Source of the DNA: Rheinheimera sp. UJ63
Lineage (GTDB): Bacteria; Pseudomonadota; Gammaproteobacteria; Enterobacterales; Alteromonadaceae
NCBI RefSeq assembly: GCF_021568285.1
Contig: NZ_JAKGTQ010000002.1
Span: forward strand, 372,001-436,000
Length of the DNA: 64,000 bases
Direction: 5' to 3'
Part shown: piece by piece, positions 1 through 16,172 of the stretch
Position numbering within the stretch: the stretch's first letter is position 1
Layout: every line of letters begins with the position of its first letter
Notes under the pieces: model-generated
The model's database searches: none
Told to the model about the DNA's origin: nothing
Seen by the model: the letters and a program-made list of their open reading frames with translations, nothing else
Translations under genes and position numbers: made by a program

Positions 1-32
1 ATTAATAGCCCAGCATAACGTTAAGCGTTCCA

Positions 33-503
33 ATGACACTGCGTCGTAAATATCATAGCTTTACGCAGATACCGCTAGCTGTGCGCTGGCTAATGCCAAT
101 TACCTGGGTTTTACTAGGCCTTTCCCGTGTTATTGTTCTCTTGTTACCATTTCGCAAGCTTGCCCCTTTATTGGGATGTCGCGCCGATGCGCCAGTATTA
201 CCCTTAGTTGCACCGCAGCATCTTCAGCGGTTGCGTAACCTGAAGCAACTGATTGCTATTACCAGTCATTATTGCCCTTGGAAAGCGAATTGCTTCGCTC
301 AGGCGATTACTGCCAAAGTGTGGTTAAGCTGGTGGGGGTTACCTTACACCCTTTTTTTTGGGGTTGCACGCGATCCTGCTCAGCAGCTTAAAGCGCATGC
401 ATGGTTAATCGCTGGGCCGGTAGTGGTATGTGGAGGCAATAGCTTTGCTCAGTTTACTGTGGTCGCCAGCTATGTCAGCCAGCCGTTCTCCGCTAATAAA
501 TAA
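33..503 (+). CDS. Lasso peptide biosynthesis B2 protein (leader peptidase)
   Basis: This 156-residue protein resembles the stand-alone B2 family (transglutaminase-like fold) that cuts the leader from a lasso precursor. The family signature is visible: Cys87 in NCFAQA followed by a GxxxxLxxGV segment and the AHAW motif with His122, the usual Cys and His of the active site. I do not see a clear acidic third residue. A hydrophobic stretch lies at about residues 15-40. The length fits a B2 that is separate from B1, and a separate B1 gene follows at 2225. It is the first complete gene of the plus-strand lasso operon; the operon may begin left of the window, because only 32 bases precede this ATG. 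Function is inferred from family and context. Confidence 0.82.
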   Translation: MTLRRKYHSFTQIPLAVRWLMPITWVLLGLSRVIVLLLPFRKLAPLLGCRADAPVLPLVAPQHLQRLRNLKQLIAITSHYCPWKANCFAQAITAKVWLSWWGLPYTLFFGVARDPAQQLKAHAWLIAGPVVVCGGNSFAQFTVVASYVSQPFSANK

Positions 504-534: not shown

Positions 535-2235
535 TTGTTTTTTAATCAGTTAAAGCAATATATCCGCTATCTTATCGCCACCTCTGGCCGCCAGCTTGTT
601 GTGGGTTTTTGTTTATTATTAATCGCGGCTATTACCGAAGGGTTAGGCCTGTTTATGTTGCTGCCATTACTGGGGGCACTTACCGGCGATAGTTCGGTCA
701 CGGCGCAACTGCCTGCTGTTTTTCAAACCTTGCCACAATTAGTTGAGCCGGCAATATTATTACTGTTGTTTTTCTTGTTGTTGTGTTTTCGTGCTGGCAT
801 CATTTTTGTGCGTGAAAACTATATGGCTCTGATTCGCCTGCATTCCTCAGATCAGTTACGGGCGACTTTGTTTAACGCCATGCTGCACTCGCGTTGGCAA
901 TACAGTTCGCAGGTGGCGCATGAACAGATTATTGAGCAGTTAACAACTGGTATGCAACGAGTCGGCATGGCGACCTTTTATGTGCTTAAAATTGCTACAT
1001 CAGCCATCTTAATTATCACCTACCTTTTTGTCGCACTTAAGCTTGCCCCCATGGCTGTGCTGCTAGCGTTGCTGCTGGGTGGCGGGACTTTATTTTTTTT
1101 GCGGGGTATTAACCATAATGCTTTGAACTTAGGTGAAAGCCTTACTCAGACGCAGCGGCAGCTGTATAACCGAGTATTATTTTATTTAAATGGCTTAAAA
1201 ACCATAAAAACCTTTCAGCAAGAGTCGGTGCAAGCGAGCACTTTTGCACAGCAACAACTTCTGTTGCGAGATAACCAGCTTAATTATCAGCGAAAGAGTG
1301 GCCGTAATCAGTTTTTGTTTAGCATCATTACTGCGGCTGTGGTGTGCATTATGGCTTATGGCGGGTTATTTTGGCTAACGTTGCCACTAGCGACGTTAAC
1401 GTTATTGGTGGTGATTTTTATCCGCTTAATGCCACTGTTGCTAGACATGCAAAACAGCTTGCAGCGGTTATTGCATACATTGCCGGCATTTACGGATATT
1501 CATCAAAGCCTTATGCTATTCCAACGCCATGCGGAAAGTGGTAACGCAACGGTTAATTTAGCTGCGCCTCAAGTTGAAATTGCGCTGCGAGATGCCTGTT
1601 ACAGGTATCCCTCTGGCCGTGGCGTTAGTCATGTATCACTGTATTTACCTGTAGGTGAAATTACCTTATTACAAGGGCCGTCGGGTAGTGGTAAAACGAC
1701 TATAGCGGACATTCTTAGTGGTTTAGTTAATGTACAACAAGGGCAGCTATGTCTTGATGGTAAGGCGTTAGACGACTTAGCATTGTTGGCGTGGCGGCAG
1801 CAAGTGATCTATATCACGCAAGAGCCTTTTTTATTTGATGCAACCATTAGGGACAACATTGTCTGGGGGTCGGCTTTTGCTGGCCAACACGATACAGACG
1901 AACAGCTAAGAGATATATGCGAGCAAGCGGCGGCCACTTTTATTTTTAGTTTGCCAGAAGGGCTTGATACGACAGTAGGTGAGCGGGGCATTGCGCTATC
2001 AGGCGGGCAGCGACAGCGTGTTATTTTAGCCAGAGCGCTATGCCGCAAACCGTCGCTGTTAATCTTAGATGAAGCCAGCAATGCATTAGATAATCAAACC
2101 GAGCAAATATGGTTGGATAACCTAAAACAGTTAACACCACACATAACGGTGTTGCTAATTAGCCATAAAGAAGATGCTGCACAGTGGGCAGATCACATTG
2201 TTGAAGTAAAGCAGGAAAATATTAATGCAAAATAA
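535..2235 (+). CDS. Lasso peptide ABC exporter (D-type, TMD-NBD fusion)
   Basis: This is a 566-residue half-transporter with an N-terminal membrane domain (about residues 1-310, several hydrophobic helices) fused to an ATPase domain. The ATPase has Walker A GPSGSGKTT (from residue 381), a Q-loop in YITQEPF, signature LSGGQ (from 488), Walker B LLILDEAS (from 508) and a switch His in LLISHKE. In lasso clusters such D proteins export the mature peptide and often give self-immunity. The start is TTG at 535, preceded by AGGAA ten bases upstream; no better start was seen. Its end overlaps the next gene by 11 bases, which suggests translational coupling. The substrate is inferred from the surrounding B2, B1 and C genes. 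Confidence 0.85.
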   Translation: MFFNQLKQYIRYLIATSGRQLVVGFCLLLIAAITEGLGLFMLLPLLGALTGDSSVTAQLPAVFQTLPQLVEPAILLLLFFLLLCFRAGIIFVRENYMALIRLHSSDQLRATLFNAMLHSRWQYSSQVAHEQIIEQLTTGMQRVGMATFYVLKIATSAILIITYLFVALKLAPMAVLLALLLGGGTLFFLRGINHNALNLGESLTQTQRQLYNRVLFYLNGLKTIKTFQQESVQASTFAQQQLLLRDNQLNYQRKSGRNQFLFSIITAAVVCIMAYGGLFWLTLPLATLTLLVVIFIRLMPLLLDMQNSLQRLLHTLPAFTDIHQSLMLFQRHAESGNATVNLAAPQVEIALRDACYRYPSGRGVSHVSLYLPVGEITLLQGPSGSGKTTIADILSGLVNVQQGQLCLDGKALDDLALLAWRQQVIYITQEPFLFDATIRDNIVWGSAFAGQHDTDEQLRDICEQAAATFIFSLPEGLDTTVGERGIALSGGQRQRVILARALCRKPSLLILDEASNALDNQTEQIWLDNLKQLTPHITVLLISHKEDAAQWADHIVEVKQENINAK

Positions 2236-2503
2236 CATAAAACATTATTGCCGCAATCCAGAGGTAGTATTTGCACAAATGGGTGATGAATTGGTGATGC
2301 TGTCAGAAGAGCAAGGCCAGTATCTGGGGTTAAATACGATCGCTGCGGACATATGGAATCTACTTGAAGCTCCGATGGCGTTTGCGCAGCTTTGTTCATC
2401 GTTGCAACAGAAATATCAGGTTACGGCTGAACAGTGCGAAACAGATGTGCAGCTGTTTTTAGGGCAGATGCTGCAGCATAAGCTCATAGTAACCCAGGAG
2501 TAA
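2225..2503 (+). CDS. Lasso peptide B1 protein (PqqD-like RiPP recognition element)
   Basis: This 92-residue protein has the PqqD-like pattern of a stand-alone B1: a two-strand start (GDELVMLSEEQGQYLGLN), then TIAADIWNLLE and two helices. Such RRE proteins bind the leader peptide of the precursor and deliver it to the B2 peptidase. The expected ligand here is the WxxPxL leader encoded at 7550-7687 on the other strand. It overlaps the exporter gene by 11 bases and lies 3 bases before the kinase gene, so it is clearly part of the operon. Cytoplasmic, with no signal peptide. The PqqD-like call is strong; the lasso role comes from context. Confidence 0.85.
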   Translation: MQNNIKHYCRNPEVVFAQMGDELVMLSEEQGQYLGLNTIAADIWNLLEAPMAFAQLCSSLQQKYQVTAEQCETDVQLFLGQMLQHKLIVTQE

Positions 2504-2506
2504 GCT

Positions 2507-3433
2507 ATGTCAGAGCTTGCAGCAGCATCAAGTTATCAGGTTTTTGGTGTAGGTGTGTATAGCCAAATAGCACTGACCTCTAATCAAGTTATGTCTGTTG
2601 ACAGTTCGACTGAATCTGTATTGATTCACCAAGGTAAGATTGAACTGCCAACATCTGATGTTGCGCAGCAAATTGCGGCATGTTGTTTTGCGAGCGCAAG
2701 TGAAATCTGGCTTGATATACCCAACTTAGCCAAGTTTTTTATAACAGAACGTGACATTATTGTAGATGCTGTACTTGGCGCAGATGCAGATTTAATCCAA
2801 GTGTATTTGCAGGGGTACGCCTTAGGTGTGCAGGCAATGCTGGCCGGTAAAATGGTGTTGCATGCTACCACATTGAGCCGAAATGATAAGGCTATTGTAT
2901 TGTGTGGTAGTAGTGGCAGTGGTAAATCAACTATTGCGGCGGCGTTGCTGGCTAAAGGGTTTAAATTAGTCAGTGATGAAATTACTATTATTGACCAAGA
3001 TGGAAAGGTGCTGCCGGGTTTTGATGATATTAAGTTATGGCAAGATGCGGTAGATGTGCTTAAGCTTCCCGCGCAGTGCATTCAGCCCTTGCGCGAGGTG
3101 ATTAACAAAGTCTATTTTCGGCCAGAACAGCAAAAGTCGCAACCTGTTCGCCCTGCCGTGGTGTATGTGTTAGATACTGATAATCGTCAGCCCGCTCAGC
3201 TTACTGAATTAACCGGTTTTGCTAAGTTTGAACCTTTACAATCGCATTATTATCGAGCTTTTTTGGTAAAACCATTAAAACGAGATAAGCTTTATTTAAC
3301 ATTAAGTGGTAAACATTTAGGGGCGTTACCGCTGGTGAGTGTTAGCCGAGAGCTGAATCGCCTTGATGATGCCAGTTTATCAAAGCTTGCCGACGCCATA
3401 AATCATGATGCTATGGCAAGGGGCGTAAAATGA
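2507..3433 (+). CDS. HPr kinase-like protein, candidate lasso precursor kinase
   Basis: This 308-residue protein resembles the HPr kinase/phosphorylase-like proteins found in paeninodin-type lasso clusters, which phosphorylate the C-terminal Ser of the precursor. The P-loop is GSSGSGKST (from residue 134), followed by LVSDEITII and PGFDDIKLW, matching the order of motifs in this family. It lacks the N-terminal domain of true HPr kinases. It sits between B1 and the sulfotransferase and overlaps the latter by the ATGA of start and stop. A second homologue is at 7813-8730. The precursor at 7550-7687 ends in Ser, the residue type such kinases use. Substrate is inference; kinase-like fold is well supported. 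Confidence 0.8.
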   Translation: MSELAAASSYQVFGVGVYSQIALTSNQVMSVDSSTESVLIHQGKIELPTSDVAQQIAACCFASASEIWLDIPNLAKFFITERDIIVDAVLGADADLIQVYLQGYALGVQAMLAGKMVLHATTLSRNDKAIVLCGSSGSGKSTIAAALLAKGFKLVSDEITIIDQDGKVLPGFDDIKLWQDAVDVLKLPAQCIQPLREVINKVYFRPEQQKSQPVRPAVVYVLDTDNRQPAQLTELTGFAKFEPLQSHYYRAFLVKPLKRDKLYLTLSGKHLGALPLVSVSRELNRLDDASLSKLADAINHDAMARGVK

Positions 3434-4266
3434 ATGGCGGTATTTTCTGGTTAGCCTCGTACCCTAAATCAGGCAACACTTGGACGCGTACTTTTCTTAA
3501 TGCATTAATGCGGCCAGAGCAAGGCGTAGATATTAATAAACTTAATACCGGTGGTATCGCAAGCTCACGGTCTTTGATAGAAAATGCACTTGGCCTGTCA
3601 CTGGAAGAAAGTAGTTCTGTTGAAATTGAATTATTAAGGCCCATAGCGTATCGATTTTTGCACCAGCAGGCACAACAACCAGAATACATAAAAATACATG
3701 ATGCCTATGTGTTAAATGTTCAACAGCAGCCGCTGTTCCCGGCTGACGCAGCTAAAGGGGTGTTATATATTGTACGCCATCCTTATGATGTTGCCGTATC
3801 ATTTGCCAATCATAATGGCTCTTCTTTGCAAGAGGCTGTTGATATCATGTGTCGGAGTGACTATCGGATGTCCAAATCCAAAATCAGATTAAACTCGCAA
3901 GTAGAGCAGCGTTTGCTAAGTTGGTCTGAGCATGTGCGATCTTGGTTAGATAGCCCTCATCGGGTGCATCTAATGCGTTATGAAGATATGCAGCATTCAT
4001 CTTTAGCTACTTTTAGTGCGTTGGCGAGCTTTCTGGAAATTGGTGCAGACATTTCACAAATACAAAATGCTATCGATGCTTGCCACTTTAATAAATTAAA
4101 AGAAAAAGAGTTACAGCATGGTTTTCGTGAGAAACCTGTTAAAGCCCCACAGTTTTTTCGAAGTGGTAAAGTAGGTGAGGGGGCTGAAAGGTTAAATAAA
4201 GCTCAAAAACAGCAATTAGTCAGTTGTCATCTTCATATGATGCAACGGCTGGATTATGTACCTTGA
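3430..4266 (+). CDS. PAPS-dependent sulfotransferase, candidate lasso-tailoring enzyme
   Basis: This 278-residue protein is a typical sulfotransferase. The 5'-phosphosulfate loop YPKSGNTW is at residues 11-18, the 3'-phosphate motif follows in YIVRHPYDVAVSF, and a C-terminal FFRSGKVGEG resembles the RxGxxG motif that closes on PAPS. Cytosolic, with no signal peptide. Its ATG overlaps the kinase stop (ATGA), and the cyclase gene starts 34 bases after it, so it is made with the lasso enzymes. The predicted core peptide has no Tyr, so if the peptide is the acceptor, a Ser hydroxyl or an added group would be sulfated. The acceptor is not shown by the sequence. Confidence 0.82.
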   Translation: MNGGIFWLASYPKSGNTWTRTFLNALMRPEQGVDINKLNTGGIASSRSLIENALGLSLEESSSVEIELLRPIAYRFLHQQAQQPEYIKIHDAYVLNVQQQPLFPADAAKGVLYIVRHPYDVAVSFANHNGSSLQEAVDIMCRSDYRMSKSKIRLNSQVEQRLLSWSEHVRSWLDSPHRVHLMRYEDMQHSSLATFSALASFLEIGADISQIQNAIDACHFNKLKEKELQHGFREKPVKAPQFFRSGKVGEGAERLNKAQKQQLVSCHLHMMQRLDYVP

Positions 4267-4300: not shown

Positions 4301-6250
4301 ATGTCTCATATCTATGCAGTAGCGCAGCTTGAAAAAACCTCTGCATTGTGGCCGGAGCTTGCCACTGCACAGGCAGAAAAGATGTGTGCTATCAGCCAGT
4401 ATTGGCAGCCTGAAAAAGTAGATCAGCTGCAGCAAAACACGCCGACACCGCTGCTAATGGGGCAATTACTGCGGTTTAATACGCCATTCTATCGTTTTGA
4501 AAAAGTGCATAGTGTTATCCCCGGCCATTTATATGTAGTGGCAAATGCCAGGCTTGACAACCGAGAGCAAATTTTTCAGCTGCTTGATGCTGCAGTGGAT
4601 GCGGAGATAGCGGATGGCATGTTAATTGGATTACTGTATCAACGATTTAACCTGGAATGCCTTCAACATTTGTTAGGCGATTTTGCCTTTATTATCTGGG
4701 ACGAAGCACAGCGGCAACTGTTTGCCGCCTGTGATCATTTTGGCGTAAAAAATCTGTTTTATGGTTACTGCGACTTAGGCTTAATGGTAAGTAATGAGCA
4801 TAAGGCGTTGTTAATGGCGCCTGGGTTAGATAACCAAATTAACCCCGATTATCTGGTCAAGCAGTGGTTACCCTTACCCGATGTCGGTTATGTTTCACCT
4901 TGTAAAGGTATAAAATCTATCCCGCCGGCGCACTACTTACTGGTAAATCATGATGGTGCTTCTTGTCAGCGTTATTGGCAGTTACAGCAGCGTGATTACC
5001 CCGAGTTTAGTAACAAAGTGCAAAGTATTGCTGGCTTACGACAGCGTTTTGAGTTGGCCGTACAGCGGCGTCTGGTTACTGACTTTACAGTAGGTGCCGA
5101 GTTAAGCGAAGGCCTAGATTCAACATCTATTTGTGGTGTAGCGGCAAAAATACTAGCAACTGAAGAGTTACTTACCTTTTCATATCGCTGCGAGCCGATT
5201 AATGAAAATAATAAAGAGACCTATCGTGATATTCTGGATTTTGTTGAGATGTATGACAATATTCGGCCGCAGTGGCGTGAAGTAGAACCAAAACAAAGCG
5301 AAACCGAGTTAAATCGCGCTATTTTTAATGCTTTTGGTGCGCCAATGCCGCAAACAGGCCAATGGTTAGAGCGATACCCTTTAATAACAGATACCCAGGT
5401 CCGCACTTTACTGAGCGGCTGGGGCGGTGACCATTGTGTCACCGGCTATGCAGATTTCTTTGAAGATGAACTGCTAAAGAGTGCTAAATTATTAACGCTA
5501 TTAAAGCTATTAAAAAGCAAACATCGGCGTGGACGTGGTAGTCAACCAATTAAGGTTTTACTGCGTTTGTTGCTTAAACACCTTTCCACAGCATTTTATC
5601 GACGTTATTTATTATGTAAAGACCCTCTCTTGAAGCAGTATAACCTTATATTGCAAGCCCAACCGCTGAGAAGTCAGTGGATCCACGAAGATAAAATTGA
5701 GCAAAGCAAGCGAATCGTCTTGGGAAGAACCGAATTGCAAAGTGTACAGCAACGGGATTGGCGCGAGTTGTTCGATATTGGTGTGCATTGGCGCCTTTTT
5801 GGTTCTGAGGTTGCAGGTCGTTTTTTTCAATTGGAATATCGCTTTCCAATGCTCGATAAAGAATTGGTTGAGTATGTGTATAGTATGCCTTCGGCCTATA
5901 AGATCTGGAATGGTGTTGAGCGTTCAATGTTTCGTGATGCAATAAGCGGTTTGGTGACTGAGCGGATCCGTACTCGGCTAAAATCTGATGTTATTTTACC
6001 CAAAGGCATGCTGCAGAGTCAGCTTGAACATAAAAAATTACAGCTCGAGCATTTAATTACCGAGTTACAACATCACCCATTGACGCAGTACTTTTTTGAT
6101 GAAGCATCTTTTGCTGCCATACCAACAAACTTTGCCTCTATGCCGATGGTCGTGACAAAGCTTGAAGCACTTAAAGCACTGTGTAAGCTATATGACCAAA
6201 AATTGATATTTCTGCCAGAGTTTGAAGAAAATTTACCGGTATTGGATTAA
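4301..6250 (+). CDS. Lasso cyclase C (asparagine synthetase B-like)
   Basis: This 649-residue protein has the asparagine-synthetase layout: an N-terminal Ntn-type glutaminase-like domain (about 1-230) and a C-terminal ATP-pyrophosphatase domain. The usual nucleophile Cys2 is absent (the protein begins MSHIY), as in lasso cyclases, which do not use glutamine. The pyrophosphate loop reads SEGLDST at residues 269-275 in place of the common SGGxDS; the second Gly and Asp-Ser are kept. In lasso biosynthesis this enzyme adenylates the side chain of the acceptor Asp or Glu and closes the macrolactam with the core N-terminus. The predicted acceptor is Glu8 of the core at 7550-7687. Context with B1, B2 and D supports the call. 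Confidence 0.85.
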   Translation: MSHIYAVAQLEKTSALWPELATAQAEKMCAISQYWQPEKVDQLQQNTPTPLLMGQLLRFNTPFYRFEKVHSVIPGHLYVVANARLDNREQIFQLLDAAVDAEIADGMLIGLLYQRFNLECLQHLLGDFAFIIWDEAQRQLFAACDHFGVKNLFYGYCDLGLMVSNEHKALLMAPGLDNQINPDYLVKQWLPLPDVGYVSPCKGIKSIPPAHYLLVNHDGASCQRYWQLQQRDYPEFSNKVQSIAGLRQRFELAVQRRLVTDFTVGAELSEGLDSTSICGVAAKILATEELLTFSYRCEPINENNKETYRDILDFVEMYDNIRPQWREVEPKQSETELNRAIFNAFGAPMPQTGQWLERYPLITDTQVRTLLSGWGGDHCVTGYADFFEDELLKSAKLLTLLKLLKSKHRRGRGSQPIKVLLRLLLKHLSTAFYRRYLLCKDPLLKQYNLILQAQPLRSQWIHEDKIEQSKRIVLGRTELQSVQQRDWRELFDIGVHWRLFGSEVAGRFFQLEYRFPMLDKELVEYVYSMPSAYKIWNGVERSMFRDAISGLVTERIRTRLKSDVILPKGMLQSQLEHKKLQLEHLITELQHHPLTQYFFDEASFAAIPTNFASMPMVVTKLEALKALCKLYDQKLIFLPEFEENLPVLD

Positions 6251-6258
6251 TTCGCAGT

Positions 6259-7449
6259 ATGCGGCATTTTTTTCAAAAGCTCTGGAAGCATAAGCTGCTG
6301 ATTTGGAAGCGTTATATATGTCGTCGCAGTCCGTATGCTTTATACAGCTGGCGCTATATCTTACCTACAGCGGATAACGCCATACGTTGTCAACGGTCTT
6401 TCTCTTCGCGGGTATTACCTGAGTTGCCGAGATTTTTCGCAATGTTAGTGGTGTTACATCAGCTACTCTGGTGGTATTTATGGCATGGGCCTTGGGCTAT
6501 TTGGCGTAATTGGCGTTCGCAGTCTCAACAAACGCAGCATGCTTATGCTGTCACTTCAATACGGCAGTTACTTCATTTATTACGCCTAGCTTATGGCCGC
6601 ACTGTTCATCCTGCAGCCTATTATCAGTTGGTTTTGCATCGTTATCCTCACTCGCATACTTTCAATTTTATTTATTCTCAACAGTTACCTGATTGGCATA
6701 AGGTATGGCAGCCACATATAACTGAGCCGGTGCAGGCGTTAATTCGAAACAAGCGGCTGTTTGCAGAGCAAATGTCTGCTGCGGGTATGAATACTGTGCC
6801 GACGTTAAGCTATTGGCAGCAAGGGACACGTTTAACTAAACTACCTAGCTTTGAGGATAATACCGTATTCTGTAAACCTGTTGCGGCTTCAAGATCGCAG
6901 GGTTGTTATACCCTTCGTATCACAAAGCAAGAGTGTTGTTTAACTACATATACAGAAACGCTCACTGCACCAGCAGTGGTTTTGCGTTTTATAAATGAAA
7001 ATATGGCCAGCCAAAGTTACCTTGTGCAGCCGTTTTTGCATCATCACTCGGTGTTGGATCAGTTTTTATCAGAAACGGCTTCGGTGCTGGCAACGATAAC
7101 AATCCGCTTGGTCAGTGCTTTTAGTGCAGGAGAAGTGATTTTTATGGCAGCTAATCTAGAAGTTAATGAAGGCCAGCAACGATTTAAATTATTGCCTATT
7201 AATCCCGATAATGGTTTGTTGTATGAGCACAACTGGCAGTTACCGCTTTGGTCACAGTTATTACAGCAGGTGCAACTGGGGCATAACGTGTTATCAAGCG
7301 TAAAAACGTTGGGCTGGGATTTTGTCATTAGTCAAAACCAGGTTTACTGCCTTGAAGTGAACCTTAATTGGGCCGTGCAGCCTATGCAATTACCGGAGCA
7401 GGGAGGATTGCTGGAAAAGTTTTCAAAACTTTACAGCCCAGTATCTTGA
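6259..7449 (+). CDS. ATP-grasp protein of the sugar-transfer-associated type, unknown substrate
   Basis: The C-terminal half of this 396-residue protein looks like an ATP-grasp fold: RNKRLFAEQM near residue 165, a nucleotide-binding FCKPVAASRSQG segment, SYLVQPFL, TIRLVSAFSAGEV, and an ending of GWDFVISQNQVYCLEVNLNW with the acidic and Asn residues that hold Mg-ATP. This order fits the sugar-transfer-associated ATP-grasp family. The N-terminal 160 residues are rich in Trp, Arg and hydrophobic residues and were not recognised. The gene starts 8 bases after the cyclase stop and is the last plus-strand gene of the cluster. ATP-grasp enzymes join a carboxylate to an amine or thiol, so a further amino-acid or acyl addition to the peptide is possible. 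That role is inference. Confidence 0.65.
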   Translation: MRHFFQKLWKHKLLIWKRYICRRSPYALYSWRYILPTADNAIRCQRSFSSRVLPELPRFFAMLVVLHQLLWWYLWHGPWAIWRNWRSQSQQTQHAYAVTSIRQLLHLLRLAYGRTVHPAAYYQLVLHRYPHSHTFNFIYSQQLPDWHKVWQPHITEPVQALIRNKRLFAEQMSAAGMNTVPTLSYWQQGTRLTKLPSFEDNTVFCKPVAASRSQGCYTLRITKQECCLTTYTETLTAPAVVLRFINENMASQSYLVQPFLHHHSVLDQFLSETASVLATITIRLVSAFSAGEVIFMAANLEVNEGQQRFKLLPINPDNGLLYEHNWQLPLWSQLLQQVQLGHNVLSSVKTLGWDFVISQNQVYCLEVNLNWAVQPMQLPEQGGLLEKFSKLYSPVS

Positions 7450-7549
7450 AAAATTTTAACGAATTTTTTAGTTTATTTGTTCAAGAATAAGGAGGTGAAA
7501 ATGAGATTACACCTCTTCATTACGTTTCAAAAGTTTTAGTTATTAACGG

Positions 7550-7687
7550 TTACGATGGGCCGGATCCGAAACTTTCCACGAAGGAAAATGGCTTTCCTTC
7601 GGTGTTTTCTGTTGAAATCAATGTTAAGGATGGTGCAACCCAAGGTTGCTTTTCAGTGTCTATCTGATGTTCAGAAGCGTTTTGCAT
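7550..7687 (-). CDS. Lasso peptide precursor (A), 45 residues
   Basis: This minus-strand gene, missed by ordinary ORF length cut-offs, begins with ATG at 7687 six bases after AAGGA and ends with TAA at 7550. The leader (residues 1-30) is acidic and contains WVAPSL (16-21), matching the WxxPxL-type motif read by B1 proteins, and ends NTE, placing Thr at -2 of the cut site as lasso peptidases require. The core is then GKPFSFVESFGSGPS (31-45). Gly1 and Glu8 of the core can form an eight-residue macrolactam ring, leaving a seven-residue tail. It has no Cys, so it would be a class II lasso peptide. The last residue is Ser, as in paeninodin-type precursors that are phosphorylated there. It converges on the biosynthetic operon, 100 bases past its last gene. 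Ring size and cut site are inference. Confidence 0.85.
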   Translation of the reverse strand: MQNASEHQIDTEKQPWVAPSLTLISTENTEGKPFSFVESFGSGPS

Positions 7688-7693
7688 ATAGGA

Positions 7694-7698
7694 TCCTT
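7694..7698 (-). promoter_or_regulatory. Ribosome binding site of the lasso precursor gene
   Basis: AAGGA on the minus strand lies six bases before the ATG at 7687. It fixes the start of the 45-codon precursor and supports the view that this short frame is translated. Confidence 0.75.
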
Positions 7699-7738
7699 CA
7701 GTGAGCGTGGTGATGAAGACGTAATACAAGCTAATCTT

Positions 7739-7768
7739 ATATTAGATGCTTAACCATCGCGGTGTCAA
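7739..7768 (-). promoter_or_regulatory. Predicted sigma-70 promoter of the lasso precursor gene
   Basis: On the minus strand a perfect -35 box TTGACA (7768-7763) is followed after 18 bases by TAATAT (7744-7739). Transcription would start near 7732, giving a leader of about 45 bases to the ATG at 7687. The promoter lies between the second kinase gene and the precursor, so the precursor can be made in excess of the enzymes. Confidence 0.6.
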
Positions 7769-7812
7769 TAATCCGTAAAATCATTTACTGGATAAACATA
7801 CCATGCTTAGTA

Positions 7813-8730
7813 TTATAATGTGTGTTGTTGTAAAAACTCATTAAGCCAATGCTGGAAGCCAGCTACACTTCCGCAATAATTAAAGCTTGGCAGCCACAGC
7901 TTATATAAAGGTGCTTGCTTAGCCAGTTGTACACTTTGGGAAAAAAGTTGCTGTTGTTTTTTTAACAACTTTATCAGGCCAGGCCGATAGCAATGTTTGC
8001 TCAGTGCATCTATAGCAAAGTGTGGTGCTAGCTGTTGCAGCGCATAATTATGGTTAGCGTTAGGTTGTTGCAGCAAATAAATTGCTTTAATTGGCTCAGG
8101 GTTTTGGCTGATCATTTGTATAGGAATATAACAAGGATGCTTTTCTGTGCCTGGCGCAGTGGTATACCTCGTATCTGGTAAAAGACCTAGTTTTACCGCC
8201 GTGTCGCATTGAGCTTTAAACCTTCTGTGAGACGGATAAACTTTGATTGGGCTTTGACCTTGATTGCCATGAAGTGAAATCACATCATCTGTGAAGACTT
8301 TCCAACCAGCATTCGCAGCAGCAAGCGCTAAGGTGCTTTTTCCTCTGCCACTAGCACCTAGAAAAAGAATTGCGCCTTTACCAGTGCTGACCGATGCTCC
8401 GTGCAAAGGCAAAAACTGGTTTAGGTATAAGCTTCCAGCTAGGCCGCTGCCCAAAGCAAAGGTTAAAAGATGTTCTTTGCATAGATTGGGGTTGGCATAA
8501 ATGGTGATGTTTTCTGGGCTTTTAATCAGTGCCTGTCCTAAATTTGGCAGTGTGCTTAACAATTGATAGCCGTTAGTTTGCCATTGCGCGTTTCTAGCAG
8601 TGACGTCTGATAAAAACAAGGGATGTTCACTTAAACTCAGATCGACGTTTTGAAAAGTATCGCTATTGGCGCTTGGTAGCCAGATCGGACTCGTTATGTT
8701 TAAGCCATAAATTGAATAGTGGTTGCTCAA
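7813..8730 (-). CDS. Second HPr kinase-like protein, candidate lasso precursor kinase
   Basis: This 305-residue homologue of HPr-kinase-like proteins carries P-loop GASGRGKST (125-133) followed by VFTDDVISL, which keeps the DDxV signature of the family, and PSHRRFKAQ. The protein at 2507 has SDEI at that site, so the two copies differ at a likely catalytic position. The start is TTG at 8730; there is no ATG in frame until far into the protein. It is transcribed in the same direction as the precursor gene, which begins 125 bases past its stop, and opposite to the main operon. A promoter is visible just upstream. Two kinases in one lasso cluster could mean repeated phosphorylation or division of labour. 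Function is inferred. Confidence 0.75.
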   Translation of the reverse strand: MSNHYSIYGLNITSPIWLPSANSDTFQNVDLSLSEHPLFLSDVTARNAQWQTNGYQLLSTLPNLGQALIKSPENITIYANPNLCKEHLLTFALGSGLAGSLYLNQFLPLHGASVSTGKGAILFLGASGRGKSTLALAAANAGWKVFTDDVISLHGNQGQSPIKVYPSHRRFKAQCDTAVKLGLLPDTRYTTAPGTEKHPCYIPIQMISQNPEPIKAIYLLQQPNANHNYALQQLAPHFAIDALSKHCYRPGLIKLLKKQQQLFSQSVQLAKQAPLYKLWLPSFNYCGSVAGFQHWLNEFLQQHTL

Positions 8731-8990: not shown

Positions 8991-9218
8991 AATTATTCAA
9001 ATAATGAAGCACAAGCAGGTCAATCTAAAGCCGATTTCATAGCAAAGATGAGTATCGCCAGTAAAGAATCACGTGATATGAAGTATTGGCTAGATTTGCT
9101 ATGTTTATCGGGATATTTAGATAATAAAAAGCCTCACGTTATTAGCATACTAAGCCAAAGTGAAGAATTGATAAAAATGCTCATTAAAAATAGTAAAAAC
9201 ATCACAACTGAACATTAA
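8991..9218 (+). pseudogene. Relic of a four-helix-bundle (23S rRNA intervening-sequence type) gene, C-terminal part
   Basis: An open stretch without a usable start reads SKADFIAKMSIASKESRDMK, then YWLDLL and a Ser-Glu-rich end EELIKMLIKNSKN before TAA at 9216-9218. This matches the C-terminal half of the small four-helix-bundle proteins known from rRNA intervening sequences, which also occur scattered in polysaccharide loci. The N-terminal helices are missing and the sequence before 8991 is the MBL relic, so the join looks like a deletion or recombination scar. Family assignment is from memory of the motif. Confidence 0.65.
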
Positions 9219-9237: not shown

Positions 9238-10692
9238 ATGACCAAATTAGCTTTTCCACCCACGTTTATCCACCACGGCGCCGTTAATGGCGTGACCGGC
9301 TCTTGTCATGAGTATCAACTTGCCGCTGATTATGCGGTGCTTATTGATTGTGGTTTGTTTCAGGGTGATGAGCAGGGCAGCGGCAGTGATAAAGCTAATC
9401 TCGCTATTCAATTTCCCATTTTGCATATACAAGCGTTAATTGTTACGCATGTGCATATTGATCATGTGGGGCGTATTCCTTATTTACTTGCTGCCGGTTT
9501 TACGGGACCAATTTATTGCTCTATCGCTTCTGCCCATTTGCTGCCATTAGTGTTAGAAGATGCGTTAAAAGTGGGCGTAACTCGTGATGAAAAGCTTATT
9601 GCTGGCTTTTTAAGGGCGATTGGTCGGCAATTGGTGCCGTGTGAATATAAGCAGTGGTTGAACTTACCTGATTACCACGGTAAACCGACGGGGCAATTTC
9701 GCTTGCAAAAAGCCGGGCATATTTTAGGCTCGGCCTATGTGGAAATTAAGCATTACCCTGCTGCTAGCCGCACTGTTCAAGCCAATAACCCGGCAAGCCG
9801 TAAACAGCCAAAACCTTTTATTACGGTGTTTTCTGGCGATTTAGGGGCGCCTTACTCGCCCTTGCTGGTGGCGCCCAAGCCACCTTATGCCGCCGATGTG
9901 GTGGTAATAGAAAGTACCTATGGCGATAAGCTGCATGATGATCGGCGTTTACGTGTTAAGCGCTTAGAGCAAGTGTTATTACATTCGCTGCAAGATAATG
10001 GCACGGTGCTGTTTCCTGCCTTTAGCATCGGCCGAACGCAAGAGCTGGTGTACGAGTTAGAATGTATTATCCATCGTTTGCAAGGCCAAAAAATTCATCA
10101 ACAGTTAGCTTGGCAAGACTTAACGGTAATTATTGACTCACCCTTAGCCGCTAAATTTACTACTGCGTTTCAACAACTGCTGCCTTGCTGGAATGCCGAA
10201 GCGCGCAGCAAAGTGCATGCGGGGCGCCACCCTCTTAGTTTTGCCCAACTGCATACTATTGATAGCCATGCAGAACACCTTGCTACGGTTAACTTGCTGG
10301 CGAGTACTCGCAAGCCTGCTATTGTTATTGCCGCCAGCGGTATGTGTGAGGGCGGTAGAGTCGTGAATTATTTAAAGGCGTTATTGCCTGATGCAGCCCA
10401 TCAATTGGTGTTTGTGGGTTATCAAGCACGCGGTACGCTGGGCGCTGCTATTCAGCAATATGGTCCTCGCGGTGGTTATGTTATGATCGCCGGCGAACGA
10501 ATTGACATTCAGGCTGAAGTGCTAACATTAAGCGGCTATTCAGCTCATGCTGATAAAAAGGGGCTGATACAATTTATAAAAGGGATGCGTCACCCTCCGC
10601 AGCAGGTTAGGATAGTGCACGGTGATAATAATGCGAAACTTGCTTTGCAGCAGGCCTTAGAGCTGCAGGGAATTAAAGCGATAATTGCGTAA
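9238..10692 (+). CDS. MBL-fold metallo-hydrolase with beta-CASP/RNA-specificity domains
   Basis: This 484-residue protein belongs to the CPSF73-like group of metallo-beta-lactamase RNA nucleases. The zinc motif HVHIDH is at residues 71-76; SGDLG and ESTYGD follow, then a beta-CASP insertion and the closing GMCEGGRV and SGYSAHAD motifs. Proteins of this group cut or trim RNA in the cytoplasm; the target of this family in Proteobacteria is not established. The ATG at 9238 has AGG seven bases upstream. It leads the exopolysaccharide gene set, 45 bases before ugd, and may be co-transcribed with it. A decayed copy of part of this gene lies just upstream (8830-8985). Confidence 0.85.
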   Translation: MTKLAFPPTFIHHGAVNGVTGSCHEYQLAADYAVLIDCGLFQGDEQGSGSDKANLAIQFPILHIQALIVTHVHIDHVGRIPYLLAAGFTGPIYCSIASAHLLPLVLEDALKVGVTRDEKLIAGFLRAIGRQLVPCEYKQWLNLPDYHGKPTGQFRLQKAGHILGSAYVEIKHYPAASRTVQANNPASRKQPKPFITVFSGDLGAPYSPLLVAPKPPYAADVVVIESTYGDKLHDDRRLRVKRLEQVLLHSLQDNGTVLFPAFSIGRTQELVYELECIIHRLQGQKIHQQLAWQDLTVIIDSPLAAKFTTAFQQLLPCWNAEARSKVHAGRHPLSFAQLHTIDSHAEHLATVNLLASTRKPAIVIAASGMCEGGRVVNYLKALLPDAAHQLVFVGYQARGTLGAAIQQYGPRGGYVMIAGERIDIQAEVLTLSGYSAHADKKGLIQFIKGMRHPPQQVRIVHGDNNAKLALQQALELQGIKAIIA

Positions 10693-10737: not shown

Positions 10738-12096
10738 ATGAAAGTAACGGTCTTTGGTATTGGTTATGTGGGTTTAGTGCAAGCAGCCGTGTTAGCCGAG
10801 GTTGGCCATCAAGTATTATGTGTTGATGTGAATGCCCAGCGTGTTGAGAATCTGAAACAGGGTATTATTCCTATTTATGAACCTGGCTTAACGCCATTAG
10901 TTGAAAAACATTTTGCCAGTGGTTATTTAAATTTTACGACGGATGCAGCCGCTGGGGTGCAGCACGGTGATGTGCAGTTTATTGCTGTGGGCACGCCACC
11001 CGATGAAGACGGCTCTGCAGATCTACAATATGTGTTGGCCGTTGCTACCACTATTGCTAATCATATGGAAACGGCAAAAGTGATCATCGATAAATCGACT
11101 GTACCTGTTGGCACAGCTGATCGTGTTAAGGCTAAAATTGCCGAAGTATTAAAAGTGCGTAATGTAGAGCTTGAATTTGATGTGGTATCAAACCCTGAAT
11201 TTTTAAAAGAGGGTGCTGCAGTAAGTGATTGTATGCGGCCCGATCGCATTATTGTGGGCACATATGATGAGCGCCCGCAAGACTTAATGCGTGAATTGTA
11301 TGAGCCGTTTAATCGCAACCATGACAAGCTGATTTTTATGGATGTGCGTTCTGCCGAGCTAACAAAATATGCCGCGAACTGCATGTTAGCCACCAAAATT
11401 TCTTTTATGAATGAAATGGCCAATTTAGCAGAAATGCTAGGTGCCGATATTGAAGCTGTGCGTAAGGGTATCGGTTCTGATCCTCGTATTGGTTATCACT
11501 TTATTTACCCTGGCTGTGGTTATGGTGGCTCGTGCTTTCCCAAAGATGTACAAGCGCTTATTCGTTCATCTGAGCAACTGGGTTATACACCAACGATTTT
11601 ACAAGCCGTTGAGGCTGTTAACGATAAGCAGAAATACAAATTACCTTCTTTAGTGCAACAGCATTTTGGTGATGAGCTTGCAGGTAAAACCATTGCGCTG
11701 TGGGGTTTAAGCTTTAAACCTAACACTGATGATATGCGAGAAGCCAGCAGCCGAGTGCTTATGGAAACGCTGTGGCAAGCCGGTGCAAAAGTGCAAGCTT
11801 ATGACCCTGAAGCGATGGAAGAAACACAACGCATTTATGGCGTAAGAGATGACTTAACCTTGGTGGGTACCAAAGAAGCGGCTTTAAAAGGTGCTGCGGC
11901 ACTGGTTATATGTACTGAATGGCAACAATTTAGAGCGCCCGATTTTGACCTAATCAAAGCGCAGTTACAGCACCCCGTGATTTTTGATGGCCGTAACTTA
12001 TTTGAACCGCGCAGATTAGAAGCGCGTGGCTTTACTTATTATGCGATTGGCCGCGGTGAAACTGTCGCAAAAGCGGCTAGTAAGCAGGTTCTATAA
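10738..12096 (+). CDS. ugd: UDP-glucose 6-dehydrogenase
   Basis: This 452-residue enzyme oxidises UDP-glucose to UDP-glucuronate with two NAD+. The N-terminal Rossmann motif GIGYVG is at residues 7-12, the catalytic Cys266 sits in YGGSCFPKD, and the C-terminal UDP-binding domain contains [15 protein letters not shown]. Length and motif order are normal for the family. It feeds the 4-epimerase encoded directly downstream (gap of 4 bases) and takes its substrate from GalU encoded at 13198, so these three genes form a UDP-uronate supply line for surface polysaccharide. Confidence 0.95.
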
Positions 12097-12100
12097 TTTT

Positions 12101-13117
12101 ATGGTGAAACAACACTTTTTGGTTACCGGTGCTGCCGGTTTTATTGGCTTTTATGTTTGCCAGCGTTTGCTGGCCGAAGGCCATAGTGTTGTCGGTTTAG
12201 ATAATCTGAATGATTATTATGAAGTACAACTAAAAAAAGACCGCCTGGCACAGTTAACTGATATAGCGGTATTTCGTTTTGTGGAACTTGATTTAGCCAA
12301 TCGCGAAGGTATCGCCGCGTTATTTGCACAAGAGCGGTTTCAGCGGGTAATCCATTTAGGGGCGCAAGCGGGGGTGCGTTATTCGCTGCACAACCCTTTG
12401 GCATATGCCGATAGTAATGTAATTGGCACCCTCACAATTTTAGAAGGTTGTCGCCACAACAAGGTTGAGCATTTAGTTTATGCCTCATCTAGTTCAGTGT
12501 ATGGCATGAATGCGAAAATGCCGTTTAGTACCACCGATCGGGTAGATCACCCGGTGTCTTTATATGCGGCAACCAAAAAAGCCAATGAGTTAATGGCGCA
12601 TACCTATAGTCATTTGTATGGCATACCCACCACCGGTTTAAGGTTTTTTACAGTATATGGCCCTTGGGGCCGCCCCGATATGGCACCCTTTTTATTTACT
12701 AAAGCCATTTTAGCGGGCGAGCCGATTAAAGTGTTTAATCATGGCCAGATGATGCGTGACTTTACCTATATAGACGACATAGTAGAAGGCATAGTGCGTA
12801 TTCAAGCTAAGCCACCGCTAGCGCAGCCTAGTTGGGATGGCACTAATAGCAGCGAAAGCTTCGCCCCTTACAAGCTGTTTAATATTGGTAATAACCAGCC
12901 GGTGAAACTGATGGCTTTTATTGAAGCCATAGAGCAAGCTGCCGGTAAAACGGCGATAAAAGAATATTACCCAATGCAAGACGGTGATGTACCGGCTACT
13001 TTTGCTGATATTGATGACCTACAAGCCGCGGTCGACTTTAAACCGGCCACGCCAATTGATGTGGGTATGCAGCGTTTTGTTAATTGGTATAAAGGTTATT
13101 ATAATGTTGAGTGTTGA
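12101..13117 (+). CDS. UDP-glucuronate 4-epimerase-like SDR enzyme
   Basis: This 338-residue extended short-chain dehydrogenase has TGAAGFIG near its start and the catalytic YAATK (Tyr155, Lys159). The segments FFTVYGPWGRPDMA and DFTYIDDIVEG are typical of enzymes turning UDP-glucuronate into UDP-galacturonate. The frame is open to 12026 inside ugd, but the ATG at 12101 is preferred because the Rossmann fold begins right after it; no strong ribosome site precedes it, so coupling to ugd translation is likely. The stop codon lies inside a heptanucleotide tandem repeat, so copy-number change would alter the last residues. The exact substrate is inferred from motifs and from the adjacent ugd. Confidence 0.88.
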   Translation: MVKQHFLVTGAAGFIGFYVCQRLLAEGHSVVGLDNLNDYYEVQLKKDRLAQLTDIAVFRFVELDLANREGIAALFAQERFQRVIHLGAQAGVRYSLHNPLAYADSNVIGTLTILEGCRHNKVEHLVYASSSSVYGMNAKMPFSTTDRVDHPVSLYAATKKANELMAHTYSHLYGIPTTGLRFFTVYGPWGRPDMAPFLFTKAILAGEPIKVFNHGQMMRDFTYIDDIVEGIVRIQAKPPLAQPSWDGTNSSESFAPYKLFNIGNNQPVKLMAFIEAIEQAAGKTAIKEYYPMQDGDVPATFADIDDLQAAVDFKPATPIDVGMQRFVNWYKGYYNVEC

Positions 13118-13139
13118 GTGTTGAGTGTTGAGTGTTGAA
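13105..13139 (+). repeat. TGTTGAG heptanucleotide tandem repeat over the epimerase stop codon
   Basis: Four perfect copies of TGTTGAG (13105-13132) are followed by TGTTGAA. The stop TGA at 13115-13117 is inside the array. Seven is not a multiple of three, but every frame of this unit meets TGA within a few codons, so slippage would change only the last residues of the epimerase. Confidence 0.85.
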
Positions 13140-13197
13140 TTTTTAGTTTTATCATCAGCTAAAAGATTAACATTAGCAATTTTAGAATGGAAAAAAT

Positions 13198-14106
13198 ATG
13201 CAAAAAAGTATTGTTCGTAAAGCTGTAATACCTGTTGCCGGCCTTGGTACACGGATGTTGCCTGCAACTAAAGCTATTCCTAAAGAAATGCTACCGGTAG
13301 TGGATAAGCCGCTTATCCAGTATGTGGTGCAAGAGTGTATTGCTGCCGGTATTAAAGAAATTATCTTGGTCACGCATTCCTCGAAAAACAGCATTGAAAA
13401 CCATTTTGATATCAGTTTTGAACTGGAATCAATGTTAGAGAAACGAGTAAAGCGCCAGTTATTAGATGAAGTGCAAAATATTTGTCCGAAAGATGTCACC
13501 ATTATGCATGTTCGCCAAGGCCAAGCGAAAGGGCTAGGCCATGCGGTACTCTGTGCGCGGCCCTTGGTAGGGGATGTTCCTTTTGCGGTAGTATTGCCTG
13601 ATGTATTAATTGATGGCTACGACAGCGATTTAAAACGTGAAAACCTGGCACATATGACAAAGCTGTTTAGCGAAACAGGTGTTAGCCAGGTAATGGTTGA
13701 ACCCGTGCCAATGCAAAACGTCTCTAGTTATGGGGTTGCAGACGTGCAGGGGCATGAATTGTCACCAGGTGAGTCAGCTAATATGACTGCGATTGTTGAA
13801 AAACCCCCTATTGATGAAGCGCCATCTAATTTATCGGTAGTAGGGCGTTATGTGTTCTCTCCTGATATTTGGGAAGCATTAGAATATACGCCGCAAGGTG
13901 CCGGTGATGAAATTCAACTTACAGATGCCATCGCCATTTTAATGAAAGCGCAAGCAGTAAATGCCTATCATATTAAAGGGCGCAGCCACGATTGCGGTAA
14001 TAAACTTGGCTATATGCAGGCTTTTGTAGAATATGGCCTGCGCGATAAATACTTAGGGCCAGATTTTAAACACTGGTTAGATACATTGTTAAAACCGAGT
14101 GCCTAA
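13198..14106 (+). CDS. galU: UTP-glucose-1-phosphate uridylyltransferase
   Basis: This 302-residue nucleotidyltransferase makes UDP-glucose from UTP and glucose-1-phosphate. The N-terminal signature [20 protein letters not shown] and the following [10 protein letters not shown] are diagnostic; the VEKP and [10 protein letters not shown] segments complete the family pattern. Length is normal. It lies 80 bases after the epimerase gene, past the heptamer repeat, with a GGA ribosome site before the ATG. Its product feeds Ugd and other sugar pathways, and it closes the UDP-uronate set. Confidence 0.95.
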
Positions 14107-14189: not shown

Positions 14190-16172
14190 ATGTTTACTTG
14201 GTTACTGGCGCTGCCGCGTTCGGTTAAACGTTTAATATCGGTATCGATAGACACGTTATTCTTATTTTTATCTATTATTCTTGCCTTCGTACTTACGCAG
14301 AATGGCGATGTTGCGCAGCTTAAACTCATTATGTTTGCGTTTCTCGTCACGCTGCCTATTACTTTAGTACTATTTACCAAGCTTGGTTTGTATCGTGCAG
14401 TAATTCGTTATGTTGGGCAGCATGCCTTGGGCGCGGTACTGTTTGGTATAGTGGGTAGTGCCATTGTGTTAGCGGGCTTGTTTGCGGTGTTAGGCGTGCA
14501 CGATCGCACTAGCTTGGTTATTGTGTATGCATTGCTTGCTTTAGTTACCTCTGGTGGTATTCGTTTAACCGCAAGAATGGCTTTTTTACCGCAAAATAAC
14601 GGCCATAAAACACGTGTACTCATTTATGGTGCAGGTTCCTCTGGGCGACAGCTTGCGCAAGCCTTATTAAACGGCGATCAGTATCATCCGGTAATGTTTG
14701 TGGATGATGATAACACCTTACAACGCTCAACCATTTTAGGCATTCCGGTAGGTAACCCTGATAGCATTGCCAGTATTATTAAACAAAAAAACATTGGCCG
14801 CGTACTACTAGCGATGCCTTCGGCAAGCCGCTCTCGCCGTCGTGAAGTATTAGATCGCTTAGATCAATTACCTTTACCTGTGTTGTCTATTCCAGGTATG
14901 AGTGATTTAGTCGATGGGTGTATGCGCATTGATGAATTGCAAGATGTGAAAATTGAAGATTTGCTAGGCCGAGATCCGGTTGCACCTAAAACCAAGCTTT
15001 TAAACGCCAATATTAAAGACAAAGTTGTAATGGTGACCGGCGCGGGCGGCTCTATTGGCTCTGAGTTGTGCCGGCAAATTATTCGATGCGAACCTTTAAC
15101 CTTAGTGCTGTTTGAGTTATCTGAATTTTCGCTATACGCCATTGAACAAGAACTGCGTAATCATATTGAAGCCGAAGGCTTAGACATTAAATTGATCCCA
15201 GTAATGGGTACAGTGCAGCGGCAAAGCCGTTTAGAAACAGTAATGCGCACCTTTGAAGTGAACACGGTTTATCATGCCGCAGCTTATAAGCATGTACCGT
15301 TGGTGGAATACAATGTAGTGGAAGGCGTAAGAAATAACGTGTTCGGTACTTGGTATGCAGCCGATGCGGCTATTAAAGCCGGCGTTCAAAATTTTGTATT
15401 AATATCGACCGACAAAGCGGTGCGCCCAACCAATGTGATGGGGGCGTCTAAGCGCTTGGCTGAATTAGTGTTACAGGCTTTAGCGCAGTATCAAAATAAA
15501 ACCCGCTTTTGTATGGTGCGCTTTGGTAATGTGTTGGGCTCTTCTGGCTCAGTGGTACCTTTATTTCGTGAGCAAATTCGCAAAGGTGGCCCCGTTACGG
15601 TAACGCACAAAGATATTATTCGTTACTTTATGACCATTCCTGAAGCAGCACAGTTAGTGATACAAGCGGGTGCGATGGGCAAAGGCGGTGATGTATTTGT
15701 ACTGGATATGGGCGAGCCCGTAAAAATTGCAGATTTAGCCCGCCGTATGATCCATTTAATGGGCCTTGAAGTGAAAGATGCTGCTCATCCAGAGGGCGAT
15801 ATCGAAATTCACTATTCGGGTTTGCGGCCCGGCGAAAAATTGTATGAAGAATTACTGGTAGGCAGTAACGTTCGCAAAACTGAGCATAGCCGTATTATGG
15901 CTGCCGATGAAGCCTGTTTAAACTGGGAGCAGATGCAGCATCTTTTAGCTCGTTTAGACGTAGCCTGTGATCGTTTTGCGGTAGAAGAAATTATTGAGCT
16001 GATCCGCTCTGCGCCAACCGAGTTTAATTACAGTAATGCCACAAGTGATTTGGTGACCAATGCGACTTGTGCGGTTATTACGGGTGCCCAAATTGCCAAT
16101 ATTTCTGATTCAAAAGCCGCGATCTCGATAGAATCGCACATAGTTGAAAACTCATCACAACAAATCGCTTGA
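14190..16172 (+). CDS. Membrane-bound nucleotide-sugar 4,6-dehydratase (WbpM/CapD type)
   Basis: This 660-residue protein is of the long type, with four N-terminal membrane helices (about residues 10-125), a linker Rossmann domain (YGAGSSGRQLA) and a C-terminal SDR domain starting at TGAGGSIG (283-290). The catalytic Tyr of the SDR triad is replaced by Met in NVMGASKR, as in WbpM-like UDP-GlcNAc 4,6-dehydratases. The product would be a UDP-6-deoxy-4-keto sugar for polysaccharide or O-antigen at the inner membrane. The ATG follows GGAG by eight bases. A separate promoter is visible upstream. Such genes often mark the end of O-antigen and capsule loci, which fits its place before the yjb-like export genes. 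Confidence 0.9.
   Translation: MFTWLLALPRSVKRLISVSIDTLFLFLSIILAFVLTQNGDVAQLKLIMFAFLVTLPITLVLFTKLGLYRAVIRYVGQHALGAVLFGIVGSAIVLAGLFAVLGVHDRTSLVIVYALLALVTSGGIRLTARMAFLPQNNGHKTRVLIYGAGSSGRQLAQALLNGDQYHPVMFVDDDNTLQRSTILGIPVGNPDSIASIIKQKNIGRVLLAMPSASRSRRREVLDRLDQLPLPVLSIPGMSDLVDGCMRIDELQDVKIEDLLGRDPVAPKTKLLNANIKDKVVMVTGAGGSIGSELCRQIIRCEPLTLVLFELSEFSLYAIEQELRNHIEAEGLDIKLIPVMGTVQRQSRLETVMRTFEVNTVYHAAAYKHVPLVEYNVVEGVRNNVFGTWYAADAAIKAGVQNFVLISTDKAVRPTNVMGASKRLAELVLQALAQYQNKTRFCMVRFGNVLGSSGSVVPLFREQIRKGGPVTVTHKDIIRYFMTIPEAAQLVIQAGAMGKGGDVFVLDMGEPVKIADLARRMIHLMGLEVKDAAHPEGDIEIHYSGLRPGEKLYEELLVGSNVRKTEHSRIMAADEACLNWEQMQHLLARLDVACDRFAVEEIIELIRSAPTEFNYSNATSDLVTNATCAVITGAQIANISDSKAAISIESHIVENSSQQIA

Follow-up and report, generated by a model that had tools for sequence, protein, structure and literature searches.

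Lasso peptide clusters that carry a kinase gene beside the maturation genes have been described from several bacterial groups. Paeninodin-type clusters comprise the B1, B2, C and D genes together with an HPr-like kinase and often a nucleotidyltransferase (N), encode a precursor with a WxxP leader and a C-terminal serine, and are often found in capsule loci (PMC13381572, PMC9266682); paeninodins are described there as restricted to Bacillota (PMC13381572). A proteobacterial lasso cluster with a kinase acting on the C-terminal Ser is represented by SyanA/SyanK from Sphingobium yanoikuyae (PMC8498205, PMC9266682), and for pseudomycoidin a kinase (PsmK) and a nucleotidyltransferase (PsmN) are described, the C-terminal Ser receiving a phosphate and then a hexose (PMC9266682). 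Lasso kinases of this kind are described as modifying the linear precursor, at its C-terminal Ser (PMC9266682, PMC8498205). The bsf cluster of Bradymonas sediminis contains A, B1, B2, C, D, K and N and a conserved kinase motif, of which the His, Lys, Ser, Asp and Asp residues were shown to matter, but BsfK is described as phosphorylating Ser3 instead of the C-terminal Ser (PMC10368454). A source from 2014 noted that some Gram-positive anaerobes have lasso clusters with an HPr kinase and a sulfotransferase, the role of which it left unclear, so that the presence of both genes in lasso clusters has been in print since then (PMC4289311). A sulfotransferase gene is also mentioned for Firmicutes lasso clusters in a later source (PMC8498205).

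Here, we analysed a cluster from Rheinheimera sp. UJ63 within a stretch of 64,000 nucleotides, which we call the window (Table 1). The plus-strand genes follow one another in the order N, B2, D, B1, K1, S, C and G as far as position 7449, and the precursor gene A lies on the minus strand, tail to tail with G. The second kinase gene, K2, is our addition to the first-pass annotation and is the next minus-strand gene beyond A. Our best reading is that the cluster, set within a polysaccharide locus, would yield a lasso peptide that is phosphorylated and probably also sulfated. We estimate the probability at roughly 0.83 that the A precursor is cut after residue 30 to yield a 15-residue lasso with a Gly1-Glu8 ring, likely phosphorylated at Ser15 and probably sulfated by S. 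On either side, the cluster is bordered by polysaccharide genes, which encode a wecB-type epimerase, a sugar transferase, a UDP-glucose dehydrogenase, an epimerase, GalU and Polysacc_synt_2. To the right of the cluster, at window 9238-10692, we also observed a beta-CASP metallo-hydrolase gene (PF10996, PF07521), which among the NCBIfam models scores best against that of type VII CRISPR Cas14, with 286 bits, far under the cut-off of 800.

Table 1. Features of the cluster; coordinates refer to the window unless another locus is given.
Feature	Assignment	Coordinates	Strand	Basis
N	end of PF14907 nucleotidyltransferase	1..49, mostly to the left (L002 8850-10049)	+	126.6 bits, cut-off 31.2
B2	transglutaminase-like leader peptidase	33..503	+	NF033537 lasso_biosyn_B2 79.7 bits, cut-off 33
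D	ABC exporter	535..2235	+	PF00005 104.4 bits, cut-off 25
B1	PqqD-like leader-recognition protein (RRE)	2225..2503	+	PF05402 65.8 bits, cut-off 23.4
K1	HPr-kinase-like	2507..3433	+	HprK_rel_A 64.2 bits, below cut-off 200; kinase alignment
S	PAPS-type sulfotransferase	3430..4266	+	PF00685 75.4 bits, cut-off 22; overlaps K1 end by 4 bases
C	asparagine-synthase-like macrolactam cyclase	4301..6250	+	PF00733 over cut-off
G	ATP-grasp PF14397	6259..7449	+	50.5 bits, cut-off 31.4; convergent with A
A	putative lasso precursor	7550..7687, stop included	-	translation, variant P0002, homologues, shuffle test
AAGGA	ribosome-site-like stretch	7694..7698	-	read in sequence, 6 bases before the ATG of A
TTGACA-18-TAATAT	promoter-like site upstream of A	7739..7768	-	10/12 consensus bases, weak
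K2	second HPr-kinase-like	7813..8730	-	HprK_rel_A 31.4 bits, below cut-off 200; upstream of A
PF07484 collar genes	phage-tail-collar-domain genes in other genomes	L050 9938-11628, L048 489-2076, L051 6161-7745, L049 4547-6140		

Compared with the paeninodin-type clusters, this cluster is gammaproteobacterial, its host belonging to the same family as an Idiomarina metagenome-assembled genome (MAG) considered below and not to Bacillota, and it contains an extra second kinase, a sulfotransferase and an ATP-grasp gene. Its core is short (15 residues), Pro-poor and starts with Gly, and the precursor gene is convergent with the enzyme genes. The accessible text on SyanA/SyanK mentions no sulfotransferase, second kinase or ATP-grasp, a distinction drawn by description and not by sequence (PMC8498205, PMC9266682), and that on pseudomycoidin mentions no sulfotransferase or ATP-grasp (PMC9266682). 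The bsf leader has Ile at position -2 and BsfK uses Ser3 (PMC10368454), whereas the window precursor has Thr at -2 and Pro as residue 3. The Gram-positive clusters with a sulfotransferase, compared by description, come from different phyla, and the accessible accounts tie no precursor or product to the sulfotransferase there (PMC4289311, PMC8498205). A is the likely substrate of a tailoring set of two kinases, a nucleotidyltransferase, a sulfotransferase and an ATP-grasp enzyme. Naming it makes genes that have been unexplained in lasso clusters since 2014 testable on a defined 15-residue peptide.

The B1, B2, C and D genes that the first-pass annotation had listed are all present within about 7 kb. 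B2 exceeds the cut-off of its lasso-specific model, and its Cys and His are kept in all eight aligned B2 proteins; a search of solved structures with B2 gave no match. B1 scored 71.8 bits against the lasso-specific NF033536, just under the cut-off of 80, and its best solved matches are lasso RREs, namely 9x90, entitled 'lasso peptide biosynthesis PqqD family chaperone', and TbiB1. The best NCBIfam match of C is the lasso cyclase model NF033535 with 227 bits (cut-off 525); C also reached 108.7 bits against the XrtA/PEP-CTERM amidotransferase model, and its six solved-structure matches contained no lasso cyclase. The ATP-grasp alignment retained conserved Lys, Asp, Glu and Asn residues in G, and a solved-structure search with the ATP-grasp profile found no match. 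K1 and K2 are below the Pfam cut-off as well. That C, B1, K1 and K2 all stay below their lasso- or kinase-specific NCBIfam cut-offs speaks against our main reading.

By the standards of sequence analysis, the assignment of A as the lasso precursor is close to certain. Translation of the minus-strand frame yields 45 residues and a stop, exactly as the first-pass annotation described it: a 30-residue leader, MQNASEHQIDTEKQPWVAPSLTLISTENTE, with a WVAP motif and Thr(-2), followed by the 15-residue core, GKPFSFVESFGSGPS. The pattern of lasso precursors (Y/WxxP, Thr(-2), a small residue 1 and Asp/Glu at 7-9) appears as W16-P19, Thr29, Gly1 and Glu8; the core ends with Ser15 and contains no Tyr. The AAGGA ribosome site could be seen as claimed. 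The TTGACA promoter-like site is there too, but it is weak evidence for A, because a scan around the gene found two promoter-like sites where shuffled sequences gave a mean of 1.6 per region by chance. Pfam and NCBIfam runs on the A precursor returned no family.

We scanned 19 kb, from 10 kb left of the window up to window position 9000, and observed a single precursor-like frame. Of 600 dinucleotide shuffles, 45 contained at least one frame with the motif (leader motif, Thr(-2), small first core residue, acidic residue at 7-9), a number that fell to 4 when a C-terminal Ser was also required; the motif was drawn up after the frame was known, so these counts serve as a guide and give no clean probability. 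The strict motif was found in the A frame only. The first-pass annotation had considered another precursor just left of the window, and the 10 kb in that direction held none with the strict motif. The first scan additionally matched a frame inside the sulfotransferase gene (window 3770-3892; L002 13770-13892), the core of which would be 8 residues long, and a looser scan of the 19 kb also gave one frame opposite the ATP-grasp gene at window 6668-6829. Past the stop of A, a hairpin is no better than chance, with 21 of 200 shuffles folding as well. Inside A, at the leader-core junction (window 7579-7601), the plus strand holds a hairpin of 9 pairs that has a T-rich tail. It resembles a terminator of the plus-strand operon and may stop the enzyme transcript within the antisense of A; two such terminator-like hairpins were found in the region against 0.4 expected.

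The protein search with A returned P0002 as its sole relative, a metagenomic protein of 45 residues encoded on two contigs, neither longer than 4890 bases, with 91% identity to A (E 3.6e-18). The leaders are identical (30/30), and the four changes are all in the core, GKPFSPSESLGFGPS, in which Gly1, Glu8 and the closing GPS are unchanged. When 395 genomes of the family were searched in six frames, a single further genome gave a match (G697, 47%, E 2.8e-6); its precursor (L050 9723-9881) adjoins homologues of C, B1, K1, S, K2, D, B2, G and N. Reading of related cyclase loci added precursors in L048, L049 and L051 and two in L005. The profile of an alignment of eight precursors (A1) matched database proteins P0123-P0131, with P0129-P0131 adding three more precursors. 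Clusters of this kind with a precursor homologue are present in Idiomarina, Kangiellaceae, Aliikangiella and Pleionea, and in a Bacteroidales MAG. The view that such a gene is easily missed holds insofar as the homologues are only called 'hypothetical proteins'; they are still annotated in four named genomes (a Kangiellaceae MAG, an Idiomarina MAG, Aliikangiella coralliicola and Pleionea sp. CnH1-48). Among 365 genomes of the order, the A1 profile matched six, namely the window's own genome, G370, G334, G305, G143 and G116. Four of the six, including the own genome, have S-type clusters; G143 has a kinase-containing lasso cluster without S (L080), and G116 gave a weak match with an internal stop. 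The same search in the wider class found the precursor in the own genome only (1/369).

All 12 distinct precursors end with Ser; Thr(-2) is also present in 12/12, a count to be read with the pattern scans in mind, which required Thr and did not require Ser. The first-pass annotation had pointed to the conservation of the leader and of Gly1/Glu8 in related clusters as informative, and conserved precursors were indeed found there. The ring residues are kept as a class and not as letters: the first core residue is Gly in ten, Ala in one (L051) and Ser in one (L048), and the ring Glu is at position 8 in 8/12 and at position 9 in 4/12. In distant Bacillota loci, the candidate precursor frames are mostly paeninodin-like and do not all end in Ser, the one in L007 ending in Cys. 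The precursor gene stands tail to tail with the enzyme genes in four of the seven precursor-bearing loci (the window, L048, L049 and L051; not L005, L050 and L080), a placement common in this group that matters for genome mining. We also observed that P0126, P0129, P0130 and P0131 have different leaders and an identical core, GGGFGGNETTTTKPGS, the reverse of the pair of A and P0002, which share their leader but not their core.

The alignment of 12 kinases (A2) revealed His, Lys, Ser and the first Asp common to all and the second Asp in 11, the exception being K1 of the window, in which Glu replaces the motif's final Asp. K2, upstream of A on the same strand, keeps the whole lasso-kinase motif (His, Lys, Ser, Asp, Asp). 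On this basis, Ser15 may be phosphorylated mainly by K2, with K1 perhaps working together with S. A phosphate on the C-terminal Ser of the product is likely.

Sulfation of the peptide by S is probable. In the alignment of the sulfotransferases (A3; identities 34-46%), SYPKSGNTW, His90, R116-S124 and FFR.G..G are kept, leaving the PAPS-site motifs intact. The best solved matches of S were Teg14 and TEG12, followed in the single-sequence search by StaL; these are sulfotransferases that act on glycopeptide antibiotics. Sulfation of a Tyr was ruled out, since the window core has none, which excludes a phenol acceptor for S here. Because Tyr is absent from the window core and from five of the eight A1 precursors, the acceptor would be either a Ser or something attached to the C-terminal Ser, the only hydroxyl residue at the same place in all eight. 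In a more speculative reading, phosphate and sulfate might for this reason converge on the tail, at the Ser or at its phosphate-linked sugar. The literature that we searched for lasso peptides with sulfotransferase or sulfation contained, in its accessible parts, no sulfated lasso peptide; if true, sulfation would join the known lasso modifications.

Could S and the ATP-grasp enzyme act on something else? The lasso machinery could be real while both enzymes serve the surrounding polysaccharide, leaving an ordinary phosphorylated lasso peptide as the product. We consider this unlikely, albeit deserving serious weight. It fits the polysaccharide genes on both flanks, the name 'sugar-transfer associated' of the ATP-grasp family and the existence of stand-alone S relatives: of 394 genomes of the order, 13 contain S-like genes (E <=1e-15), at 15 places altogether, four in lasso clusters and 11 outside, so the S family is not confined to lasso loci and S as a lasso-only enzyme is ruled out. 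However, S from lasso-type loci forms its own lineage, as one branch with support of 100/100 separates seven of these, the window S among them, from 11 stand-alone sequences (n=18; midpoint root for drawing only, and the lasso side includes L003, with no B1, B2, D or precursor in 14.5 kb). Furthermore, the kinase gene lies directly 5' of S in the window, L003, L005, L047, L048, L049 and L050, and the two genes overlap or abut in all seven, overlapping in six (by 4 bases in five) and standing 5 bases apart in L047. The glycopeptide sulfotransferases among the solved matches and the co-occurrence of the ATP-grasp gene and S with A in L048, L049 and L050 also argue for a peptide substrate.

The ATP-grasp gene adjoins the precursor gene in the window, L048 and L051, and C falls below the lasso cyclase cut-off; both would suit an unthreaded, branched-cyclic or graspetide-like product with its key bond made by the ATP-grasp enzyme. 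We regard such a product as improbable, because B2 scores above its lasso cut-off, the precursor is laid out like that of a lasso peptide (Thr(-2), Gly1, Glu8), and this ATP-grasp finds no match in L005 and L080, although both have precursors. Still less probable is a polysaccharide or exosortase-type locus that contains PqqD, HprK-like and asparagine-synthase-like genes and in which the 45-codon frame is open by chance. The polysaccharide surroundings, the score of C against the amidotransferase model and the bare-motif frames of the shuffles lean that way, but conservation opposes a chance frame, given the identical leader and changed core of P0002 and the related frames that adjoin related enzyme genes in other genera, and B2 is lasso-specific. 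We thus retain the phosphorylated and probably sulfated lasso peptide as the preferred reading.

For this peptide, we propose a pathway modelled largely on the described systems. A, tail to tail with the enzyme operon, has a promoter-like site of its own. B1 would bind the WxxP leader, and K2, K1 or both would phosphorylate Ser15 on the linear precursor. By analogy with the proposal for pseudomycoidin, N might attach a sugar to this phosphate. B2 would cut off the leader, C would close the ring and D would export the peptide. Going beyond any characterised relative, we infer that S would sulfate the peptide or its C-terminal decoration and that G would form an additional amide-type bond; a cell-surface role is likewise conceived without direct precedent. 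As a tentative extension, which we judge less likely than not, a dedicated S lineage coupled to HPr kinase genes in Gammaproteobacteria, Zetaproteobacteria and Bacteroidota might make phospho-sulfo lasso peptides that bear their marks at the tail end and reside in or on the surface polysaccharide.

The cyclase search of 60 relatives found the cyclase in the own genome only, with 30 species of the same genus among those lacking it, and the order-wide search found it in 4 of 394 genomes, scoring the three best candidates per genome, such that weaker cyclases like that of L080 were missed. The nearest matches of the cyclase protein search, P0004-P0007 among 7998 candidates scored, are metagenomic with 60-67% identity. 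The search of 311 plasmid records gave distant asparagine synthases only, none with at least 60% identity. In the tblastn comparison of 44 loci (39 from the cyclase scan and five from genomes), S matched in seven, of which L003 and L004 are near-copies, and the ATP-grasp G matched in three; PF14397 is also present in L049.

Several observations from these loci concern neighbouring genes. In four other gammaproteobacterial genomes, three tandem genes with phage-tail-collar domains (PF07484; Table 1) adjoin the S-type lasso clusters, and the cluster in the window has none. They are the genome's only ones in three of the four and 3/4 in the fourth; we found no paper combining 'tail collar' and 'lasso peptide' in the literature searched. 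L003, from a Zetaproteobacteria MAG, has N, K, S and C, with B1, B2, D and a clear precursor not found within 14.5 kb; a minus-strand frame with WATP near the expected place lacks Thr(-2), and we do not claim it as a precursor. A reverse transcriptase gene (PF00078, L003 11847-12728) follows the cyclase gene there, and the bases downstream of it resemble a group II intron end. In L048 of Aliikangiella, genes for a 2OG-Fe(II) oxygenase and a second sulfotransferase-like protein (6639-7712, 7561-8622) lie between the precursor and the cyclase genes; the Kangiellaceae genome likewise has second sulfotransferase-like and 2OG-oxygenase genes, the family scan having been run on L048 only. In the Bacteroidales locus L005, with two precursors and two cyclase matches, C is followed by a YcaO gene, and B2 has an APS kinase gene (PF01583, 220 bits) beside it (11902-13263, 15280-15885). 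As APS kinase is a maker of the sulfate donor, these two genes suggest a supply of sulfate donor and possibly a backbone modification.
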